A stretch of 64,000 nt of DNA from Erwinia rhapontici. Its GTDB lineage: Bacteria > Pseudomonadota > Gammaproteobacteria > Enterobacterales > Enterobacteriaceae. Below, one piece after another: positions 3,186 through 63,452 of this stretch. The DNA lies in assembly GCF_012271765.1 (NCBI RefSeq), contig NZ_VRKO01000016.1:682001-746000 (forward strand). The letters are read 5' to 3'. A program made the translations under genes and the position numbers. The notes beneath the pieces were generated by a model, which worked only from the letters and a program-made list of their open reading frames with translations, was not told the origin of the DNA and did no database searches. Numbering within the stretch: position 1 is the stretch's first letter; each line of letters opens with the position of its first letter.

Positions 3186-3357
3186 ATCGGCACTCTCTGT
3201 TTTTTTAATAAAGTGCGGAGCATTATAAAAACTTATTGCGCAACAGCGCCAGTTAATTGCGCATCAGGTTAAAGGTTTTAGTTTTTTTGCCGAAAATAGC
3301 ATCAGAAGTACCACATTTACTGTGACGCTACGGCGTAAGACCAAGGGACTGAACGCA

Positions 3358-4698
3358 ATGACTGCTATTTCTTCTGTTGGAAACCTGTCAGTGAACATGT
3401 TGCCGGGCGCAACGAAACTGGCCACTACCGCTGCGGCGGTAGACACGTTACAAACGCCGCTCCTCTCCTCAACCTCGGTGTCTCTCGGCCAGTCTGCGGC
3501 CGCGCCCCCCGTTTATTCTCTGCCACGTATTTCAACGGCTACGACGCAAACCGACAATCAGGGGATTCTGAGCGTAAAAACCGCCAGCGGCGCAGAGGTT
3601 GAACTGACCCAGGCCAGTGACGGGTCGGGTATTCAAATCAAAGTGAACAAGGGAACCTTGAGTGAAACTGAACGCAGCGCGCTTGAGAAGCTGTCGGACG
3701 GTTTTAAGAAGGCGATGGAAGGACTGACAGGTCAGCCACCGCGTCTTGACCTGAGCGGCTTGACCAAATTTAACAGTGCAGTACTGACGTCAGTCGATCT
3801 GCAGGCGAAGGTGACAGGCGAAAATAAGCTGACGCTGGCTTTTCATGCTGACACTAATACGCGTTCGGTAAAATCCACCGGCACCCTCGGCACCGTAGAT
3901 ATCAGCGTGGATATGAGTAAGCGGGCGATCCTGGGTAATGAGAGTCAACAGCAGCGGGCGCTGAGCCAGTATCTGAAGCAGTTCGACCGGGCGCAAAGCC
4001 GGGGTGAGGGTAACAGTACGCTGATGACCATGTTCAAGGATGCCTTTACGGCGCTCAACAGTCACTACGACAGCAGTACGCCCGCCCAAAGTCGTCCGCA
4101 AACCCTTTATCTCTCCCTGACGCGGACGGACAAAAACATGCTGACCGGACTGGCCGATTTTACGGCTTCTGTCACGCAAACCCCGCAGTCGCCAAATCCG
4201 ATACGTCTAAGTGAGGGTGATACCTTCTCGTATCAGGTATCGCAAACCAGCACGCTTTCCGGCACCAGCGACCAGAATCGTCATATCACCCAGAAGCAGC
4301 AGTCGCATCTGACCGCCAGCTACCATAAAGCGCTGACCTCCGGGCTGCAACTCGCGCTGACCGCGGACAGAAACGCGCAGAATTATTTCTACACGCAGAT
4401 TGATGATAAGGCGGAAAGCACCACAGAAGTGCAGTATCGCAAAGGGGCGCTGGTGTCGGCGACGCTTGACCAGTCGGCGAGTACCTCAACGCGAGTGCAA
4501 AAGTATGTGAAAGGGGAGCTGATGTCTGATGTGACAACCCCTGAGCAGAAATCAACGTCAACCGACCTGCTCGGAAAGTTGCAGTCAGCCTGGAAAGCGG
4601 AGAATCCACGGGCATCCTTTGCGGATTATCTGCGCCAGCATACACTGCCAGATTTCGGGGAAGAGGTGCTGTTAAATTCAGATCCTTCCAGTCTATAA
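3358..4698 (+). CDS. Uncharacterised 446-residue protein
   Basis: I do not assign a function. The protein starts with about 60 Ser/Thr/Ala-rich residues lacking a clear signal peptide. It then has a predicted mixed alpha/beta body with many Thr, Ser and Gln residues (for example LSETERSALEKLSDGFKKAMEGL near 100-125) and ends in a helical segment LLGKLQSAWKAENPRASFADY. No enzymatic motif or membrane segment is evident. The ATG at 3358 follows AAGGGACTGAACGCA and is preferred over the GTG at 3322. It sits where E. coli has the mal/uid region between add and ydgA. Its last 25 codons and terminator are repeated at 6088, beyond the amidase cassette. Confidence 0.7.
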   Translation: MTAISSVGNLSVNMLPGATKLATTAAAVDTLQTPLLSSTSVSLGQSAAAPPVYSLPRISTATTQTDNQGILSVKTASGAEVELTQASDGSGIQIKVNKGTLSETERSALEKLSDGFKKAMEGLTGQPPRLDLSGLTKFNSAVLTSVDLQAKVTGENKLTLAFHADTNTRSVKSTGTLGTVDISVDMSKRAILGNESQQQRALSQYLKQFDRAQSRGEGNSTLMTMFKDAFTALNSHYDSSTPAQSRPQTLYLSLTRTDKNMLTGLADFTASVTQTPQSPNPIRLSEGDTFSYQVSQTSTLSGTSDQNRHITQKQQSHLTASYHKALTSGLQLALTADRNAQNYFYTQIDDKAESTTEVQYRKGALVSATLDQSASTSTRVQKYVKGELMSDVTTPEQKSTSTDLLGKLQSAWKAENPRASFADYLRQHTLPDFGEEVLLNSDPSSL

Positions 4699-4782
4699 AG
4701 CCAACGGGCCGCTGTTGCGGCCCGTTGGTTAACACATCTTACTGCGGCATACCTTCTGGTATGGCATAACTACCCAGCATAT
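4623..4782. repeat. 160-bp direct repeat, copy 1 (5' boundary of amidase cassette)
   Basis: This copy spans the last 25 codons of the 446-residue gene, its terminator, and a tail that reads on the minus strand as the end of ydgA (ending MLGSYAIPEGMPQ, stop at 4739). It aligns without gaps to 6088-6247, offset exactly 1465 bases, with roughly 13 mismatches by eye, most of them in the ydgA tail. In this copy the ydgA portion is an orphan fragment of a divergent allele, because nothing upstream continues the YdgA frame. Confidence 0.9.
4701..4730. terminator. Intrinsic terminator after the 446-residue gene (repeat copy 1)
   Basis: A perfect 12-bp inverted repeat (CCAACGGGCCGC, loop TGTT, GCGGCCCGTTGG) starts 3 bases after the stop codon. 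It is symmetrical, so it could serve both strands. The same hairpin is present in repeat copy 2. Confidence 0.75.
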
Positions 4783-5063
4783 TTTGTTGCGAAACGCCGA
4801 GTCGGGGCAACAGTTTTCGGACTTTCTGATATACCGTGCCCGCTGGACTCACGCTGAGTCCGTCCGTAAGTGGATCGTCCAGCGGACAGTAAAGACGGAT
4901 TTATTGTATTCCAGGAAAATCACTACTGACGCAGTCTCATACGACTGGTACAGTATCAACCTTTATTACCGAACCCTAATCGGACACGTAATAAAATAGG
5001 AGAGTGATGGTTTATAATATGAAAAGGACTGCTGCAATTTAACATCATGTAAAGGAATACACT
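4783..5063. other. Gene-free leader of the amidase cassette
   Basis: This is about 280 bases between repeat copy 1 and the amidase start. It contains an imperfect inverted repeat (CGCTGGAC near 4836 with GTCCAGCG near 4873) around a smaller hairpin GGACT..AGTCC, then becomes AT-rich toward the amidase. A 71-codon open frame runs through it, but it has no ribosome site and no recognisable product. It most likely holds the cassette promoter. Confidence 0.4.
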
Positions 5064-5675
5064 ATGTACGTAGATGAAGACGGTTATATTTTTGACGTCC
5101 GAATTGAAAGGAAAATATTTAAAGGGATAGAACGGGGTAACCTGGATAACGTCAATGGCATTATTGTCCATCAAACTAACAGTACGTCGGCTCAGAGTAC
5201 ATTTAATAGCTATAATAATACGTCCGCGAATGGGGCGCATTTTTTAATTGATAAAGATGGAACGGTCTATCAAACAGCCTCTCTATTAAAAATGACATGG
5301 CATGTTGGATTGATGCAATCCCGATGTATTTTAAAGAAAGCATGTAACCCTACTGAAACCACATTAATAACGTTGCATAATGGCCACTGGAACTCTACAA
5401 AACCTAAAAAGATATCAGATTTAGAAAAGGAGAAACGTTTCCCCGATCGCTTTCCGAACAACACTGACAGTATCGGCATTGAAATAGTGGGTAAAGCTCT
5501 TGGTCCCAAAGATAAAGCAGTCTATGAGACCGTTACAGATAAACAGAATGAGTCTCTTAAATGGCTGATCGCCGAGCTTACATCTAAATTCAATGTCCCT
5601 ATGACTGAGATTTACAGGCATCCTGATGTAGGTAGAAAAAACGAAACTGAGGCCAGCACAGCGATATGGGAATAA
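5064..5675 (+). CDS. N-acetylmuramoyl-L-alanine amidase-family enzyme (amidase_2/PGRP fold), putative secreted effector
   Basis: This 203-residue protein covers a single amidase_2 domain. Visible signature parts are IIVHQTNS (His36, likely zinc ligand), GAHFLIDKDGTVYQTA (57-72), TWHVG (His80), SIGIEIVG (Glu140) and YRHPDVGRK (His186, Lys192). Such enzymes cut the amide bond between MurNAc and the L-Ala stem peptide. There is no N-terminal signal peptide, so if it works on the cell wall it needs a dedicated export route, as type VI effectors have. AAAGGA precedes the ATG. The next gene overlaps it by 10 bases and encodes an exported protein, an effector/immunity-like arrangement. Base composition is clearly AT-richer than its neighbours, pointing to transfer. 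Confidence 0.75.
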   Translation: MYVDEDGYIFDVRIERKIFKGIERGNLDNVNGIIVHQTNSTSAQSTFNSYNNTSANGAHFLIDKDGTVYQTASLLKMTWHVGLMQSRCILKKACNPTETTLITLHNGHWNSTKPKKISDLEKEKRFPDRFPNNTDSIGIEIVGKALGPKDKAVYETVTDKQNESLKWLIAELTSKFNVPMTEIYRHPDVGRKNETEASTAIWE

Positions 5676-6073
5676 AAAATCTCTTACTAAGCGCTATGTT
5701 CTTATTATCTTTGTATGCACAGGCCGGTAGGGAAGTAGTGCAACTCGAAATATTACAAAGCGGTCATTATGGGGGGGCTTCTAAGGAAGATCCCTACAAC
5801 TACACTACGGAATGTAAAGGCTGGAATCCCACCAAAGAACAATTGATGGACTACTTTGTCAATGCTAAAGAAGCGGATTCTAGCGAGGGTTGGCTACACG
5901 AATACTATTCTCCCTGCATTGCGACTGGGAAAGTAACCTTTAAAGATGAATCCTTTGGGGAGTGGGGGATTTACGATACCGGTTATGGGGTGGTGGATTT
6001 TAAGGACAAGGCGAATAAAACCGTAAAGCAAAAATATTTCCTTAACTTAAAGAATGGATGGGATAGCGAATAA
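5666..6073 (+). CDS. Small exported protein, putative immunity partner of the amidase
   Basis: This 135-residue protein starts with a classical signal peptide (MGIKNLLLSAMFLLSLYAQA, cut probably after AQA). The mature domain, about 115 residues, has paired cysteines (TTECKGW and SPCIATG) that could form a disulfide in the periplasm. I do not recognise a family. The start codon lies inside the end of the amidase gene (10-base overlap), so translation is probably coupled. A periplasmic partner encoded directly behind a peptidoglycan amidase fits an immunity protein that protects the producer; this is inferred from context only. Low GC content like the amidase. Confidence 0.65.
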   Translation: MGIKNLLLSAMFLLSLYAQAGREVVQLEILQSGHYGGASKEDPYNYTTECKGWNPTKEQLMDYFVNAKEADSSEGWLHEYYSPCIATGKVTFKDESFGEWGIYDTGYGVVDFKDKANKTVKQKYFLNLKNGWDSE

Positions 6074-6087
6074 GTAAACGTCTTACT

Positions 6088-6247
6088 GGATTATCTGCGC
6101 CAGCATACACTGCCAGATTTCGGGGAAGAGGTGCTGTTAAATTCAGATCCTTACAGTCTATAAATTAAACGGGCCGCTGTTGCGGCCCGTTGGTTAACAC
6201 ATCTTACTGCGGCATACCTTCCGGTACCGCTCCGCCACCCAGCATAT
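6088..6247. repeat. 160-bp direct repeat, copy 2 (3' boundary of amidase cassette)
   Basis: This is the counterpart of 4623-4782. Its first part reads LDYLRQHTLPDFGEEVLLNS followed by DPYSL and a stop, a detached tail of the 446-residue protein with one Ser-to-Tyr change. Its last part is the authentic 3' end of ydgA. It includes the duplicated terminator (6168-6191). The similarity stops abruptly on both sides. Confidence 0.9.
6168..6191. terminator. Terminator in repeat copy 2, shared by the cassette and ydgA
   Basis: The hairpin AACGGGCCGC-TGTT-GCGGCCCGTT lies between the immunity-like gene and the convergent ydgA gene. It is the duplicate of the hairpin at 4701-4728. Confidence 0.7.
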
Positions 6248-7706
6248 AGCGGGAGAGGAACTGTTCCAGCGGCATCTTCTCACCGTTCATGGTGATCTGA
6301 CCGGCGCCATATTGCAGGCTGATGGTGATGTTATTATCCTGCTGCGTGGTCAGTTTGAACATCTGGCCCATCGCCGCCAGGCCTTTCACCTGCTGGTCAG
6401 CCAGTTTCACCGCATCTTCCTGCTTGTAGCCTTCACCCATGGCGACGTGAGTCATCATTTCGGTCGCCATTGGCATCGAAACAGCCAGTTTGGTATCCAG
6501 CGTTTTCAACACACTGTCCACTTGCTGACCCAGATTCTGCACAGGGGCAGTGGCAGTAGACGGATCTTTGAACTGTGCATTCAGGGTATAGGTGCTTTCC
6601 CCTTTGTCATTTTTCCAGCTAAATGGCGCAATGCTGATGGACGGATCGCCCTTCAACAGCAACGACAGGTTAGCCGTCAGCAGTTCACTGGCGCGCTGCT
6701 GATAAAGCTCAGGGTTTTCCTGCATCGCTGGATCGTTGGTCAGTGCCTGCACCTGGCGATTATAGTTTTCAGAGAAGGTCTTGACGGCTTTGCCATCGAA
6801 GCCATCCAGTTTAATCGTCAGCTTGCCCTGGCCAAAAGGCTGACCCTGCAATTTCAGGCTGTCTAAACTGTAGTCAATCAGACCGGAAACGCGGTTGTTG
6901 GTGGAGTCAAAACTGGACTTACCGTTCAGTCCTTCAGCCACCATCGCTTCTTTACCTTCCACCGCCGCGCTCAGTTTTTTCAGATTGATGGTCTGATCGC
7001 CAATGCGCAGTCCTTCTGGGCTGAGATGGGTATTGGCATCAATTTTCAGGCCGTTGACGGTAAACAGCACCGGCATATCCAGCTCATTTTTGGTGGTCAT
7101 CACCAGGCTGTCGATATCACCGCTAAAGTCGACCTTATCGCCTTTGTCATCGGCGCTCACCTTCAGGGTGCCGCCATTGAAGGCAAAGCGCTCACCGGTT
7201 TGCGCATTGCTGTAATCGGCCGGCAACAGGCGAATGTCTGAATCGGTGCTGCCGCCGTAGCCGATACGGGTTTCTGCCTGCACGATGGACTGACCTTTGG
7301 TGATTTCAAACAGCTTTTTCACCACATCGGTATTCTCCAGTTCACTATGAACGGAGGCCATGCTCGGCATCAGGTTGAATTTTTTCAGCTGGGCCAGCGG
7401 GAAAGGGCCATGATCGATATTTTCACTGAAAATGATGCTCTGGCCTGGCTTCAGAATAGAGTTATCTTCGGTTTGTGAACTCGACTGTAAGACAAAGCGC
7501 GCATGGCTGCTGAATACGCCACGCTGGAAATCCTGGTAGCTCAACTTCAGCCGGCTTTCCGGTGCCGTGTTCTGGATTTGCGCGTTAGCCTGCTGAACCA
7601 TCTGGTCCATGTTTTTTTCCAACTGCTTGCCAGTAAACCAGGCTCCCGCAGTCCAGGCCACGCCAAGAGCAATCACTACACCCACGGCAATCTTTGTTTT
7701 TTTCAT
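6204..7706 (-). CDS. ydgA: YdgA family protein (DUF945)
   Basis: This 500-residue protein has one N-terminal signal anchor (MKKTKIAVGVVIALGVAWTA) followed by a long beta-rich periplasmic domain typical of the YdgA/YihF DUF945 family. Its molecular function is not established. The ATG at 7706 is chosen because it gives the conserved anchor start and has AAGGACG upstream; the frame stays open another 49 codons upstream but overlaps manA and lacks support. Position next to manA is as in E. coli. The 3' end of the gene is part of direct repeat copy 2, so the terminal sequence may have been replaced by recombination. Confidence 0.92.
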   Translation of the reverse strand: MKKTKIAVGVVIALGVAWTAGAWFTGKQLEKNMDQMVQQANAQIQNTAPESRLKLSYQDFQRGVFSSHARFVLQSSSQTEDNSILKPGQSIIFSENIDHGPFPLAQLKKFNLMPSMASVHSELENTDVVKKLFEITKGQSIVQAETRIGYGGSTDSDIRLLPADYSNAQTGERFAFNGGTLKVSADDKGDKVDFSGDIDSLVMTTKNELDMPVLFTVNGLKIDANTHLSPEGLRIGDQTINLKKLSAAVEGKEAMVAEGLNGKSSFDSTNNRVSGLIDYSLDSLKLQGQPFGQGKLTIKLDGFDGKAVKTFSENYNRQVQALTNDPAMQENPELYQQRASELLTANLSLLLKGDPSISIAPFSWKNDKGESTYTLNAQFKDPSTATAPVQNLGQQVDSVLKTLDTKLAVSMPMATEMMTHVAMGEGYKQEDAVKLADQQVKGLAAMGQMFKLTTQQDNNITISLQYGAGQITMNGEKMPLEQFLSRYMLGGGAVPEGMPQ

Positions 7707-7780
7707 CTGTAATATCGTCCTTTTCTGTTCACGAAGACGGGCGTACCCGTTCAGGTCCTGCAGGTAACCCTTTGGCGATA

Positions 7781-7803
7781 AAAAACGCCATAACGGCGTT
7801 TTT
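7781..7803. terminator. Terminator downstream of manA
   Basis: The inverted repeat AAAAACGCC-ATAAC-GGCGTTTTT is flanked by A and T runs on both sides, a textbook intrinsic terminator. It is oriented to end manA transcription before ydgA. Confidence 0.8.
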
Positions 7804-7843
7804 GATAATTCCTGGATAATCTTAGCAATTATGGTCGCTGACG

Positions 7844-9028
7844 TCAGCCGCAATTCGGCAGATCGTTATAGACTCGCGCCACGCGACCGCTACCCCTTAG
7901 CGTAAGGGGAGACTCGCTGGCGGTAATCCATGCCGATTCGCCTGCTGTTAACGACAACATCTGTTCACCACAGTTCAATAGCGCTTCACCGTCAATACAA
8001 AAAAGGATCGCAGCGCTTTGCTGGCTAACGGTTAACGGATCGTCGGTCAGCGTGTGGATGGCAAAGGCGAAATCATCCACCGGAATCGGGAAGTTAAGCG
8101 TCGTTCCCTGCTGCACGGGTGTGGTCAGCAGACTCTCTGCTGGACGGGAATCAAAGCGCAGATTGGCCAGCAACTCCGGGACATCGATGTATTTCGGCGT
8201 CAACCCGGCACGCAGCACATTATCTGAATTTGCCATCACCTCCAGCGCCACACCGTGCAGGTAGGCATGCGGTGTTTCGGCGAACAGAAACATCGCATCA
8301 GACGGCTGTAAGGTGATGACGTTCAGCAATAGCGGGGCAAACAGGCCGCTGTCATCAGGATAAACGTCAGCGATCTCAGCGATGGTCTGCCAGGGTTCAA
8401 CAGACTGACTGGCAACGGTGGTGCGCAGGATATCCAGCGCGAGGGATTTCTCTTCATCCTGCATAGAGAGCAGGCTGGCAAACAGCGAAGCGAGAGACGT
8501 GGTATCTGGCGTATTTAGAAAATGGGCAATGGCCGGATGAGCGCCTGCGACCGGCTGTAGCAGCGAGACGATTTCAGACAGCGGACGGAAGCCGTTAATT
8601 GCTTTAAACGGCGTCAGCGCGTACACCAGCTCCGGTTTATGATTGGCATCTTTATAGTTTCGCGTGGCCGCATCCAGCGGAACGCCGCTGGCGTTTTCGC
8701 GTGCATAGCCAACTTCGGCCGCCGCTTTACTCGGATGCACCTGAATCGACAGCGGCTGTGCAGCGCACAGCACTTTAAATAAAAACGGCAACTCGCCAAA
8801 ACGCTGCGCCACACCGGCACCTAACTGCGCAGGCGGGTCAGCATCGATCACATCGCGTAGCGAGCGAGATTTGCCATCGACGACGATGTGCGATGGGCTT
8901 TTCGGATGGGCTCCCATCCATAATTCGGCCATCGGCTGCTGCGACGGATTAGCGATCCCATACAGTTCAGTGAGCGCGGTTTTACTGCCCCATGCATAAT
9001 TTTGCAGCGAATTGATTAATTTTTGCAT
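7844..9028 (-). CDS. manA: Mannose-6-phosphate isomerase
   Basis: This 394-residue type I phosphomannose isomerase interconverts fructose-6-phosphate and mannose-6-phosphate, linking mannose use to glycolysis and supplying GDP-mannose synthesis. The start MQKLINSLQNYAWGSKTALT is conserved. The zinc site is visible in QVHPSK (about residue 98) and in FLFAETPHAYLHG (about residue 255). Two ATGs lie in tandem; the second (9028) has the better spacing from GGGAG. In E. coli it is divergent from fumA-fumC; here only fumC follows. Confidence 0.95.
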   Translation of the reverse strand: MQKLINSLQNYAWGSKTALTELYGIANPSQQPMAELWMGAHPKSPSHIVVDGKSRSLRDVIDADPPAQLGAGVAQRFGELPFLFKVLCAAQPLSIQVHPSKAAAEVGYARENASGVPLDAATRNYKDANHKPELVYALTPFKAINGFRPLSEIVSLLQPVAGAHPAIAHFLNTPDTTSLASLFASLLSMQDEEKSLALDILRTTVASQSVEPWQTIAEIADVYPDDSGLFAPLLLNVITLQPSDAMFLFAETPHAYLHGVALEVMANSDNVLRAGLTPKYIDVPELLANLRFDSRPAESLLTTPVQQGTTLNFPIPVDDFAFAIHTLTDDPLTVSQQSAAILFCIDGEALLNCGEQMLSLTAGESAWITASESPLTLRGSGRVARVYNDLPNCG

Positions 9029-26466: not shown

Positions 26467-26895
26467 TCAGAACTGTGGTGAGTTATCGACTTGCACCATC
26501 ACCACATTAATTTTTGAAACTGAACTAACAGTGACAGTTTCAGCAGGATCACTGCCTTTCCAGCAATATCCCTCCACTGAACAGAAATTTTGCTTAGTGT
26601 AGCCAAGAGATGCCAGATAAGCGTTAACCCTACTGGCATCAATTGTATTGTAAAACGTAACCGAATAGACAAGTGATCCGGGACCCGCCACGTTATAAAA
26701 ATCAAACTCATAGCGGTCAGATATTCTTGGTATTTTTTTCAGGATGTCCGGGGTGTAAAATTCATATTCCCGCTTATCTTGTTCAGTGTAGTGTGCGCTA
26801 CCCGCCAGCTCTATTTTTATCGTTGGCCAGCAGTAAAAAAACACGCCTGCTATCACAACGATAATGAACAGTGTTGCTTTAAGTGAGCTTTTCAT
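26467..26895 (-). CDS. Membrane-anchored small protein, putative immunity protein
   Basis: This 142-residue protein has one N-terminal membrane segment (ATLFIIVVIAGVFFYCW) and a periplasmic-facing domain with two cysteines (NFCSVEGYCWKG). I do not recognise a family. It overlaps the preceding gene by 4 bases (coupled translation) and is third in the hcp module. Together with the topology this points to an immunity protein acting in the periplasm. Low GC content compared with flanking core genes. Confidence 0.62.
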   Translation of the reverse strand: MKSSLKATLFIIVVIAGVFFYCWPTIKIELAGSAHYTEQDKREYEFYTPDILKKIPRISDRYEFDFYNVAGPGSLVYSVTFYNTIDASRVNAYLASLGYTKQNFCSVEGYCWKGSDPAETVTVSSVSKINVVMVQVDNSPQF

Positions 26896-27593
26896 ACAAT
26901 TAAATCCTTCCTCTTGCCATCTTGTATGAAAGAGCCATCCATGGTTGCAATAGCAACGTTTCCTGATTTCCAGTCATTGTAGGGTTTTATGGCCTGCATG
27001 AAATTAGGCAACTGGCCTAAGCGTGGTTTAGCGTTTGGGAATCGCTCTGGGTTCGGGAATAATAATGGTCGGAAGGTTTCATTTTTCCAGGAACCGATTT
27101 TTCCGTAATAATCCCATCTTTTCAGTGCCTCTGCTTTGCTGACTGGACGCAGCATTGCGAAAGGATTCTGAACGGAAACAACACGGTAAAAGCCCAGCAA
27201 GTCTGACACCAGGTCTTCTCCACTAAATCCACTGTCAGTCACCATATTGTTAGGAAATGAACCCTGAAATGCTTCAAACTTTCGCGCCATTGTCATCATC
27301 ATAGCGAGTGCGATGCTTTTGCGTTCTTGATAAGGACGTCCCTTTCGTATACGCCATTTGATAAACTTTCCTACCCGAATTATCCGGTACGGAGATACCA
27401 TAAACTGGGCATAGGTGGCATCGTAGCGACTTGCACTCATTGCTTCACCAGCGTCGAATTTGCTCATCAATATTCTGATGTCATCTCCTCTCGCATGACC
27501 AAGATCAATCCAGCCCAGCACTTCCGTGTAGATCAGGCCACCTCTGGCACTTGCCGCTTGTGAGCCATCAATGATTTCATTCCGTGTACTCAT
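26892..27593 (-). CDS. Putative T6SS effector, DUF4056-like
   Basis: This 233-residue protein has no signal peptide or membrane segment. The block QAASARGGLIYTEVLGWIDL, then GHARGDDIR (residues about 13-41), resembles the conserved GG-Y-GxIDxxHxR..D signature I associate with DUF4056; the His-Arg-Asp residues may be functional. Later motifs include SGEDLVSDLLGFYRVV. It is encoded 114 bases after hcp and immediately before a membrane-anchored protein, the layout of Hcp-delivered effector/immunity pairs. The periplasmic orientation of the partner suggests a target in the cell envelope. Biochemical activity is unknown. Confidence 0.58.
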   Translation of the reverse strand: MSTRNEIIDGSQAASARGGLIYTEVLGWIDLGHARGDDIRILMSKFDAGEAMSASRYDATYAQFMVSPYRIIRVGKFIKWRIRKGRPYQERKSIALAMMMTMARKFEAFQGSFPNNMVTDSGFSGEDLVSDLLGFYRVVSVQNPFAMLRPVSKAEALKRWDYYGKIGSWKNETFRPLLFPNPERFPNAKPRLGQLPNFMQAIKPYNDWKSGNVAIATMDGSFIQDGKRKDLIV

Positions 27594-27707
27594 TCCTCAA
27601 AATTCCCTTTCTGTTAAAAAATACAATTTAATTATTACGGCATAGCAAGTCTGGGCTCCAGGCTTACGCTTAGCAGGGATGGCATTGGTTAAATCTGACA
27701 ATCAGGG

Positions 27708-28190
27708 TTATATCTCTCTGTTTTCTTTGATATTCCATCCTGACGAGAATTCAGCGCCACGGGAACCTTCCTGTGTTTGCTCAAAATAATGATTACTGAC
27801 CTCTGCTGCTCTGAAGCAATAGGTGACGCCAAATAAATCCTGTTCCGATGCACCATTAAATATTACATCCGTTACCATAACCTGCTTTAGTGTTATCCTA
27901 AAAAATTCTAGTTGTTCGCCACCAGCCTTACATGAAGAAAGCTGTACCGAATTAATATGTTTCCCATTCGATACATAGCGCACAAGACCAGATGTTGCTT
28001 TATCGATAAACGCATTCACCGTTAAATCACGATATATGACTTTCCCGGAGCCTCCGCCGCTTCCTGTTTCCATGCCAGATGGTTGCGTAGCACCCCAGCT
28101 GAATGATTCTATCTGTATCCATCCCTGATGGCGGGCATCTCTTGACTCCCCTGTGACACCATCAATTTTTAAGAAAATGTCCGTACTCAT
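27708..28190 (-). CDS. hcp: Type VI secretion system tube protein Hcp
   Basis: This 160-residue Hcp starts MSTDIFLKIDGVTGESRDAR and has the family features HQGWIQIESFSWGATQP and GKVIYRDLTVNAFIDKATSG. Hcp hexamers stack into the T6SS inner tube and carry small effectors in their lumen. No other T6SS structural gene is in the window, so this is an orphan or accessory hcp that needs a secretion apparatus encoded elsewhere. Two downstream genes on the same strand look like its cargo and the matching immunity protein. Confidence 0.9.
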   Translation of the reverse strand: MSTDIFLKIDGVTGESRDARHQGWIQIESFSWGATQPSGMETGSGGGSGKVIYRDLTVNAFIDKATSGLVRYVSNGKHINSVQLSSCKAGGEQLEFFRITLKQVMVTDVIFNGASEQDLFGVTYCFRAAEVSNHYFEQTQEGSRGAEFSSGWNIKENREI

Positions 28191-61745: not shown

Positions 61746-61832
61746 ATGGCCCGGTATGATAGCGCCTGAGAAATGGCGCTAAGCTGCCGATAACACTGCG
61801 TAAATCTTAATACGCTGACAGGATTCACGTGC

Positions 61833-62555
61833 ATGGACAAGATTAAAACGACGGTGGTACTGCTCTTGCCGCTGCTGTTGCTTGTAGGTTGCAAGCAACA
61901 GGAAGATGAAGGTATTACCAAGAAAATCAGAAACCTGTCTTATCTATATCAGTTTGAAGCTATCCCTGGAAAACTGAAGAGCACCCATCAGACGATTTTC
62001 GAGGATAACGGTGAAAAGCGTTATGATGGGGTGTTTAATTTCGATAAAAACGGCTGCGTGACGGATTTTGAAGTTACTAATCTTGATATCGGCAGCATCA
62101 GCGCGCGGCGGGAGAAAGACCAGCTCATCGGAGAGGAAAATGGTAAACCCCTGGTCCTTAAACTGGACAGCGAGTGTAACGTGCTGTCCAAAACCAGCGG
62201 TAATTTTACCATTGATATCGCCTACAACAAGCAGGGACTGATTTCCGGACTTTCCTCCCGCCAGTCCGATTTTCGCGTCGCGCTGACCTATGATGCACAG
62301 GGCCGCCCGATTGGACAGAAAGCGTTCAGTGGCGATCGTCAGATTTCAGAAGGCGTACAAAACTACGCGTCAGACGCCGGCGATAAACCCTCTGATTCCG
62401 TCACGAAAAGCACAACGCCAGACGGCACCCGGGAGACCACCACCCGCTGTGAATATCAGCAGGCTGTGCCTGTCAGCTGCGTGTTCACGGTGAAAACCTC
62501 CACAAGCGACACAGTGACTGAACGCCATGCAAAGCTCACCAGTGAGTTTTATTAG
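61833..62555 (+). CDS. YnfC-like lipoprotein, copy 1
   Basis: This 240-residue lipoprotein has lipobox LLLVGC (Cys20) and a beta-rich domain. Shared motifs with the next gene are FEAIPGKLKSTHQT, EENGKPLVLKLDSECNVLSK, LTYDAQGRPIG and TTRCEYQQAVPVSC, and the overall layout matches UPF0257/YnfC of E. coli. Function unknown. Gln-Gln after the Cys suggests outer-membrane sorting. It forms a tandem pair with 62655-63398, including duplicated flanks. Confidence 0.8.
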   Translation: MDKIKTTVVLLLPLLLLVGCKQQEDEGITKKIRNLSYLYQFEAIPGKLKSTHQTIFEDNGEKRYDGVFNFDKNGCVTDFEVTNLDIGSISARREKDQLIGEENGKPLVLKLDSECNVLSKTSGNFTIDIAYNKQGLISGLSSRQSDFRVALTYDAQGRPIGQKAFSGDRQISEGVQNYASDAGDKPSDSVTKSTTPDGTRETTTRCEYQQAVPVSCVFTVKTSTSDTVTERHAKLTSEFY

Positions 62556-62654
62556 CAGCAGCCCGCCCATCGGGATACGCGTTCACACACTAACGAAGAC
62601 AGCATCACGCCTCATTATGAACAAATCTTACTAAACTGACAGGACTCACACTGC

Positions 62655-63398
62655 ATGGATATGATGAAGACAACGCTGGCGCTGCTGTTGCCCGCGCTGC
62701 TGCTTACAGGCTGTAAGAATGAAGAACCACAAGGGGTATCGACAACGGTCAAAAATATGTCGACGCTTTTTCGCTTCGAACCCATCCCCGGAAAGCTCAA
62801 AAGCACCCATCAGACGTTGTTCGATGCCAGCGGTGAGAAACAGCACGAAGCCACGGCCCGCTTCGATCAGCAGGGCTGTCTCACCGATGTTATCGTGACC
62901 AGCCTCTACGTAATTAACGACCGCAAAATCCACTCGAATACCAGCCTGCGGCGGGACAAAGACACGCTGGTCGGTGAGGAGAACGGTAAACCGGTATTGA
63001 TGAAACTGGACGGCAAGTGCAACGTCGTATCAAAAACCCGCGGCAATTCTACGCTGAATATCAGTTACAACGACCGTGGGCTGATTTCAGCTTACTCTTC
63101 CATCCAGGATCCTCTGCGCATTGACATAACGTATGACGAGCAAGGGCGAATGGTCAGGCATAACATAAGGGAAGGGGCTCGTCTGATCAGCGATGACAAG
63201 CAGACATTTGCTACGACAGAGGCGGATAAACGGCTGGATGGGGTGATGCTCACCACCTACCCGGCCTCGACCAGAGAAATCACGACGCGCTGTGAGTATC
63301 AGCAGGGCGTTCCCACTTCCTGCCGCTATAAAATTAAAACCTCGCCCGGTGATAACGTCATTGAACGTCAGTCGACGCTGGTCAGTGAATTTTATTAG
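62655..63398 (+). CDS. YnfC-like lipoprotein, copy 2
   Basis: This 247-residue paralogue of the preceding gene has lipobox LLLTGC (Cys20). The same blocks occur in the same order (FEPIPGKLKSTHQTLF, EENGKPVLMKLDGKCNVVSK, ITYDEQGRMV, TTRCEYQQGVPTSC). A seven-residue insertion near residue 90 (INDRKIH) distinguishes it. Upstream and downstream DNA is also shared between the copies, so the pair arose by tandem duplication. The start at 62655 follows ACAGGACTCAC; an ATG two codons later is possible. Confidence 0.8.
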   Translation: MDMMKTTLALLLPALLLTGCKNEEPQGVSTTVKNMSTLFRFEPIPGKLKSTHQTLFDASGEKQHEATARFDQQGCLTDVIVTSLYVINDRKIHSNTSLRRDKDTLVGEENGKPVLMKLDGKCNVVSKTRGNSTLNISYNDRGLISAYSSIQDPLRIDITYDEQGRMVRHNIREGARLISDDKQTFATTEADKRLDGVMLTTYPASTREITTRCEYQQGVPTSCRYKIKTSPGDNVIERQSTLVSEFY

Positions 63399-63452
63399 CA
63401 GCAGCCCGGCCGTCGGCACCCGCGTTCGCACACTAACGAAGACATCATCATA

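Follow-up and report, generated by a model that had tools for sequence, protein, structure and literature searches.

The 64,000-nucleotide stretch of Erwinia rhapontici DNA analyzed here (contig NZ_VRKO01000016.1, positions 682,001 to 746,000; hereafter the window, with coordinates counted from its first base) carries a small AT-rich cassette between a 446-residue gene and ydgA. The cassette is bounded by two 160-bp direct repeats and holds two genes that look like a type VI secretion system (T6SS) effector-immunity pair. We consider it probable, at roughly 0.7, that this pair once travelled as cargo of a Tn3-family transposon, that the transposon decayed, and that homology-facilitated illegitimate recombination placed what was left between the 446-residue gene and ydgA. 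The evidence comprises the repeat itself, a res site and a tnpA remnant at the left edge of the cassette, the gene family of its amidase, the linkage of paralogous amidases to hcp, the carriage of related modules by Tn3 elements in other genomes, and an empty site in relatives.

Direct repeats and transposon remnants

The two repeats (4623-4782 and 6088-6247) align without gaps, are equal at 148 of 160 nucleotides, and form the top self-match of the window (E 4.5e-62 in a window-versus-window blastn search with a limit of E 1e-5). The first-pass annotation of this DNA, made from the letters and their open reading frames (ORFs), had placed both copies exactly and estimated about 13 differences where 12 were counted. 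A correction concerns the distribution of these mismatches, which are clustered and not spread out: eight of the 12 fall in 4757-4771, and equal clustering was reached in 0 of 100,000 random placements. In both copies a hairpin connects the 3' end of the 446-residue gene with that of ydgA, as had been described; the stop codons lie at 4696-4698 for the 446-residue gene and 6161-6163 for its orphan copy, and at 6204-6206 for ydgA and 4739-4741 for its orphan copy. The left repeat consists of the 446 tail, a terminator-like hairpin (4701-4728, read from the sequence as a 12-bp stem with a 4-nt loop), and an orphan tail of a ydgA-like gene of about 12 codons on the minus strand (4739-4776), whose translation ends in LGSYAIPEGMPQ. 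The right repeat consists of an orphan 25-codon tail of the 446-residue gene (6088-6163), which the earlier description had also noticed, followed by the hairpin and the real ydgA tail. A scan for terminators made a terminator-like call for the right hairpin copy alone (6191-6168, minus strand).

The left ydgA tail passes directly into Tn3-family transposase sequence at a shared 5-nt word, CAGCA. From position 4775 onward the left repeat is also tnpA sequence, and its final 8 nt (CAGCATAT) are common to ydgA and the transposon remnant, such that the repeat proper probably ends within this joint. The tnpA fragment (4775-4846, minus strand) contains residues 242-261 of TnpA in frame, 20 residues that are 70% identical, together with flanking DNA. 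Its identity to the tnpA of three other elements (L089, L067, and L148) is about 75% at the DNA level, in alignments judged by eye. A nearly full-length Tn3-family res site follows at 4851-4989 on the plus strand (nhmmer, 81.3 bits, E 4e-23). The strand and order of these remnants fit the Tn3 arrangement tnpA-res-tnpR, reduced to a fragment of tnpA and the res site. No match to tnpR was obtained in the window, and no inverted repeat of about 38 bp was found at the cassette at three or fewer mismatches in 15 specified core bases; the four matches of this quality in other parts of the window appear fortuitous.

Two res models were used, the first built from six res sites with the window excluded and the second with the window included. 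On the whole genome, where 150 of 461 candidates were scored, the second model finds three places, all of them beside modules of the amidase type, and the window gives the best match. Weaker remnants are found by the first model at the hcp gene of the C2 module (26.3 bits), at an immunity gene with an amidase remnant on C3 (24.6 bits), and at the hcp gene of the C3 array (20.7 bits). The C2 and C3 remnants each lie in front of their module gene, and that of the C3 array is outside both the three whole-genome places and the 29 res places counted below. Dinucleotide-shuffled DNA of the same genome (6.32 Mb) gave zero res matches, while a copy of the C3 remnant planted in shuffled DNA was recovered at 24.2 bits. 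The stretch between the left repeat and the amidase also matches, in part, 34 plasmid records; in each of the four records examined the match precedes a recombinase gene, and in two of these it lies between a Tn3 transposase gene and the recombinase gene. The first-pass annotation had proposed that the module was exchanged without a transposase. The tnpA fragment and res site at the left edge, and the Tn3 elements in which relatives of the module ride, speak against such a history.

The predicted amidase-immunity pair and related modules

The first gene of the insert (5064-5675, plus strand) encodes a 203-residue Amidase_2 protein (PF01510, E 7.7e-21), a predicted T6SS peptidoglycan amidase effector in which no signal peptide was recognized by eye. 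Residues H36, H186, K192, and E196, which we take to be zinc ligands or catalytic residues, are invariant in a 20-row family alignment and are all kept in the window amidase. The second gene (5666-6073, plus strand) overlaps the first by 10 bp and encodes a 135-residue predicted periplasmic immunity protein; its hydrophobic N-terminus, MGIKNLLLSAMFLLSLYAQAG, resembles a signal peptide by eye and suggests that the protein would be exported. This protein belongs to no Pfam family, and its structural model (mean pLDDT 75.8) has no match in the PDB at E 0.001 or better. With GC contents of 0.39 for the amidase gene and 0.42 for the second gene against 0.54 for the whole window, the insert is indeed the AT-rich DNA with two overlapping genes that had been described.

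When compared with its C2 paralogue, the window amidase exhibits 77% protein identity, a nonsynonymous difference (pN) of 0.12, and a synonymous difference (pS) of 0.78, with silent sites saturated. A 12% nonsynonymous versus a 78% synonymous difference means that the amidase has been under constraint. Judged by family and gene order, the two genes look like a T6SS effector-immunity pair in which the amidase would be the delivered toxin and its partner would confer immunity. By strict definition the window copy is a cassette derived from an hcp-effector-immunity module, and only derived from one because it lacks hcp; the region between res and the amidase aligned to the C2 hcp only at a short chance score, and no hcp adjoins the window amidase.

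Twelve Amidase_2 matches were obtained in the genome, three stronger ones of which were set apart; the other nine are of this type and all nine have a partner-like gene directly downstream. Five of the seven hcp genes of the genome sit directly upstream of such an amidase, and the presence of one TssC gene indicates at least one core T6SS component. Two loci contain tandem amidase-immunity units. In the C3 array (L082:9399-12562) the second unit opens with an orphan hcp tail of 24 codons that is almost the same as the hcp tail of the first unit, and orphan gene tails therefore occur elsewhere in the module family; in C8 (L085:6552-10131) a 27-residue orphan hcp-like piece stands before the second amidase. 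Elsewhere in the window, a second orphan hcp (27708-28190, PF05638) is followed on the minus strand by low-GC genes of 233 and 142 residues without a Pfam family, and this region (26467-28190) is probably another T6SS module. Plasmid copies of the amidase were found in four records, all from Erwinia rhapontici. Two of these plasmids (L101 and L102) carry, at one site, different amidase alleles with one or two partner-like genes, a difference that looks like allele exchange. In one of the two, hcp is annotated, and in the other it was detected by tblastn only; no Tn3 gene is listed in their 16.6-kb stretches, for which the gene table is incomplete.

Relatives of the module are carried by Tn3 elements in other genomes of our collection. 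The clearest anatomy is that of a 3,730-bp element in G113 (L139), whose ends are equal at 33 of 38 nt and which has AATAC outside both ends, a 5-bp target duplication. Within it lie tnpA, a res site scoring 138 bits, and a tnpR that shares 93% identity with the one in L089, along with genes of 230 and 66 residues, hcp, and an ORF of 90 residues; the internal deletion of its tnpA makes it a non-autonomous element. The 230-residue gene, presumably an effector gene, recurs beside the same hcp type in G012, G014, G188, and G267. In G052 (L100) the order is inverted repeat-res-tnpR-hcp-amidase-immunity, and in G205 (L145) it is inverted repeat-tnpA end-res-tnpR-hcp-amidase-immunity, with tnpR internally deleted and the amidase in two pieces. 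An element in G150 (L142) is bounded by repeats that agree at 28 of 38 nt, shows no target duplication, and encloses tnpA and tnpR remnants with an immunity-like gene. Miniature elements of about 260 bp, consisting of res between inverted repeats and resembling TIMEs, were also seen (L108, L109, L112, and L147 in G002, G051, G009, and G195). The sole new element from the order-wide search, in G546, matches tnpA over its full length and shows AGATA at each end; its 383-residue gene is unmatched by the T6SS queries.

A census with the second res model found 12 places in nine of 37 genomes of the genus (our own included), 18 in 14 of 246 genomes of the family, and three in three of 394 genomes of the order, which after removal of four repeats gives 29 distinct places. 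These counts are lower bounds, as searches above 40 genomes used strict filters and scored 7 to 150 candidates per genome, and places were missed. A T6SS gene lies on the tnpR side, within about 3 kb, at 13 of the 29 places and in seven genera (7 of 12 in the genus, 6 of 16 new in the family, and 0 of 1 new in the order). Here, a T6SS gene means a tblastn match to three hcp genes, two amidases, three immunity proteins, or the 230-residue protein of presumed effector role; only eight of the 15 queries used were T6SS genes, and other effectors would escape.

Insertion site and origin of the cassette

In three genomes of the same genus (G011, G045, and G048) a relative of the 446-residue gene directly adjoins ydgA, and the repeat is present only once. 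In a fourth, G005, two other ORFs of 296 and 101 residues, unrelated to the cassette and without a Pfam family, lie between add and ydgA. Both kinds of relative had been predicted from the window, where a foreign toxin-like module at a variable site was suspected, and both were seen. The three empty relatives and the other ORFs of G005 therefore point to the add-ydgA interval being a variable slot. The cassette was found at this position in none of the 36 other genomes of the genus, in a DNA-level search that scored at most eight candidates per genome and that a distant cassette could escape. Since the collection holds one genome per species, these comparisons are made across species of the genus. 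In E. coli genomes the interval 3300-8000 is unmatched at megablast sensitivity.

Both flanking genes of the window are intact. The 446-residue gene (3358-4698, plus strand), which hosts the left repeat, matches no family in Pfam, NCBIfam, PADLOC, or PHROGs at E 0.001. Its distribution is patchy, with a DNA match in three of 36 same-genus genomes and relatives in Rahnella, Rouxiella, Pseudomonas, and several genera of Burkholderiales. On the other side, ydgA (6204-7706, minus strand) encodes a DUF945 protein (PF06097, E 4.8e-146). In another genus, G267 carries a res remnant, hcp, and a gene of the 230-residue type (L146:5014-6613) about 3.4 kb from ydgA. This module is flanked by fumC and a fumA-like gene, which we take to be the same chromosomal neighborhood as that of the window. 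The only other self-match of the window, two adjoining stretches of about 830 bp that are 64% alike (61802-63450), is probably an old tandem duplication.

We favor the following sequence of events as the origin of the present arrangement. The ancestral transposon would have had the order tnpA-res-tnpR-hcp-amidase-immunity. In this lineage it has probably lost all but a fragment of tnpA, together with tnpR, hcp, and the inverted repeats of both ends; the amidase and immunity genes remained open. The decayed piece would then have inserted between the 446-residue gene and ydgA, coming from a donor fragment of the order tnpA-res-amidase-immunity-446 tail-ydgA. At the right end, homologous recombination may have run through the 446 tail, the hairpin, and the ydgA tail; at the left end, the fragment may have been joined at CAGCA, the short word common to tnpA and ydgA. 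Such an event would keep both flanking genes whole, with the tails of the recipient on the left and those of the donor on the right, and the SYAI tail would be the older ydgA end of the recipient. As for function, the amidase would most likely be carried on an Hcp tube encoded at another locus of the genome and would cut peptidoglycan in the periplasm of a rival, while the exported partner would protect kin.

The duplication is still best explained by some form of one-sided homologous event, and to this extent the single-crossover or allele-exchange idea of the first-pass annotation stands. In its original form, a single crossover of the Campbell type with a circle that bore the cassette plus a single 446 tail-ydgA tail segment, the idea is possible but rather unlikely. 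It would give the same outcome, with the cassette between two copies of one arm, and small circular plasmids with hcp and an effector-like gene exist in the genus: Erwinia pyrifoliae pEP03 (3,070 bp) and pEP05 (4,955 bp). Both of these (L137, NC_013264.1, and L138, NC_013265.1) contain hcp and a gene for a glycoside hydrolase of family 19, with a hypothetical gene on the opposite strand. However, the circle would already have to hold both gene tails, and none of that kind was seen; the meeting of tnpA and ydgA at a shared word is also left unexplained. A route through a microhomology joint is preferred. We regard as improbable an insertion of a Tn3 element with its module into the ydgA tail, followed by rescue through recombination with an intact copy and loss of the right end of the transposon. 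This would agree with the left ydgA tail stopping where tnpA begins and with both flanking genes now being intact, but the junction lies inside tnpA and not at an inverted repeat, so that extra deletions are needed. A gene-tail duplication of the kind made by tyrosine integrases was rejected, as both insert genes match no integrase family.

Somewhat less probable still is that homologous recombination between resident T6SS loci is the sole means by which the modules spread, with the Tn3 remnants as unrelated neighbors. The 24-codon hcp tail before the second C3 unit and the 27-residue hcp-like piece before the second C8 unit would be expected from such a process, and displacement by recombination has been published for Vibrio cholerae in the available text of PMC5361080. 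Against it, each of the three res places found in the genome is next to such a module, and elements bounded by inverted repeats carry T6SS cargo, one of them with a target duplication. That the amidase serves in phage-type lysis or in cell-wall recycling, and not as a T6SS effector, is very improbable. Eight of nine PHROGs matches of the amidase are to endolysin or amidase families, and there is a weak match to the AmpD model (34.8 bits against a cut-off of 143), yet the insert holds only the two genes and the order hcp-amidase-partner is repeated in the same genome, in other genomes, and on a plasmid. This recurring order ruled out a housekeeping or phage amidase as first choice.

Several observations weigh against the transposon-borne origin and microhomology-joined entry that we favor. 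The cassette lacks an inverted repeat, tnpR, and hcp, and the evidence that it was once part of a transposon amounts to 72 nt of tnpA and 139 nt of res; the tnpA genes of L152 and L090 gave no alignment to 4775-4846, and the res matches at the C2 and C3 hcp genes are weak. Five shared nucleotides can also be a coincidence, and a donor with the predicted structure was not found among the genomes searched. The divergent ydgA allele that had been proposed for the left tail is plausible because the C-terminal SYAI part of YdgA is a variable block within the genus, although a YdgA ending in SYAIPEGMPQ was found in 0 of 240 proteins checked, including 120 listed of the 646 YdgA relatives found. T6SS cargo is not universal either: the Tn3 elements of the four plasmids examined carry other cargo or none, as do some elements of the transposon group, and four places are the small elements of res between inverted repeats. 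Only 13 of the 29 res places have a T6SS gene, while 12 have none detected, and at four the contig stops on the tnpR side (G124:C41, G116:C4, G116:C6, and G205:C10). Two of the 13 have only hcp pieces, one in G286 (37 residues, 1.4 kb away) and one in G052 (C1:2604212, 62 residues). The association count is modest, comes almost wholly from one bacterial family, and has no control set of other Tn3 groups beside it.

Comparison with known systems

Beyond the window, we tentatively propose that a Tn3 lineage of the Enterobacteriaceae acts as a shuttle for T6SS weapons, with hcp, effector, and immunity genes directly behind tnpR and maybe co-expressed with it; we hold this wider proposal with clearly less confidence than the account of the cassette. 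If it is true, a single step would bring new toxins, along with the tube protein for their delivery, to plasmids and to unlinked sites on the chromosome, and the window and many scattered modules of the genome would be decayed footprints of repeated deliveries. A cassette beside the wreck of a transposon with relatives that carry such genes in other bacteria suggests one way in which such weapons move between genomes, and Tn3 res sites could be used as tracers of T6SS weapon deliveries where the transposon itself is gone.

No description of Tn3-borne hcp-effector-immunity modules was found in open-access titles and abstract openings, with subscription journals and preprints outside the search. 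Tn3-like transposons of Xanthomonas carry type III secretion system effectors, according to the accessible text of PMC4549250. Close analogues in this respect are the Tn3 transposons of the TnXax1 type, which, as far as the consulted portion of PMC6304161 describes them, also spread genes of organism interaction, cell-wall enzymes included. In contrast, their cargo consists of type III effectors of plant infection and lytic transglycosylases, whereas here hcp, an antibacterial-type effector, and an immunity gene stand directly behind tnpR. TIMEs and their derivatives are likewise non-autonomous Tn3 relatives with inverted repeats, one derivative having res and a resolvase, and may be compared with the elements in G002, G051, G009, and G195. 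However, T6SS cargo is unmentioned for them in the available text (PMC4133298), and the window copy has lost its repeats.

Among T6SS genes, the orphan hcp islands of plasmids surveyed in 2026 (PMC13098142) resemble our modules in combining hcp, effector, and immunity genes outside a main cluster and on mobile DNA, but insertion sequence families are named nearby and "Tn3" occurs zero times in the main text of that survey. The mobile MIX V effectors of vibrios are also orphan T6SS effectors with immunity genes near transposases; they belong to another effector class, and no Tn3 anatomy is described in the accessible text (PMC4549250). In Vibrio cholerae, pairs are added by recombination and orphan immunity genes are left behind, and homology-facilitated illegitimate recombination has been discussed for these pairs and termed rare in the consulted text (PMC5361080). 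That displacement occurs inside T6SS clusters, whereas here the pair stands alone between housekeeping genes. In the accessible literature, recombination or insertion sequences close by are invoked to account for scattered orphan hcp-effector-immunity modules. L139, which has both ends, shows a target duplication, and encloses hcp with an effector-like gene, adds to these explanations a concrete vehicle.

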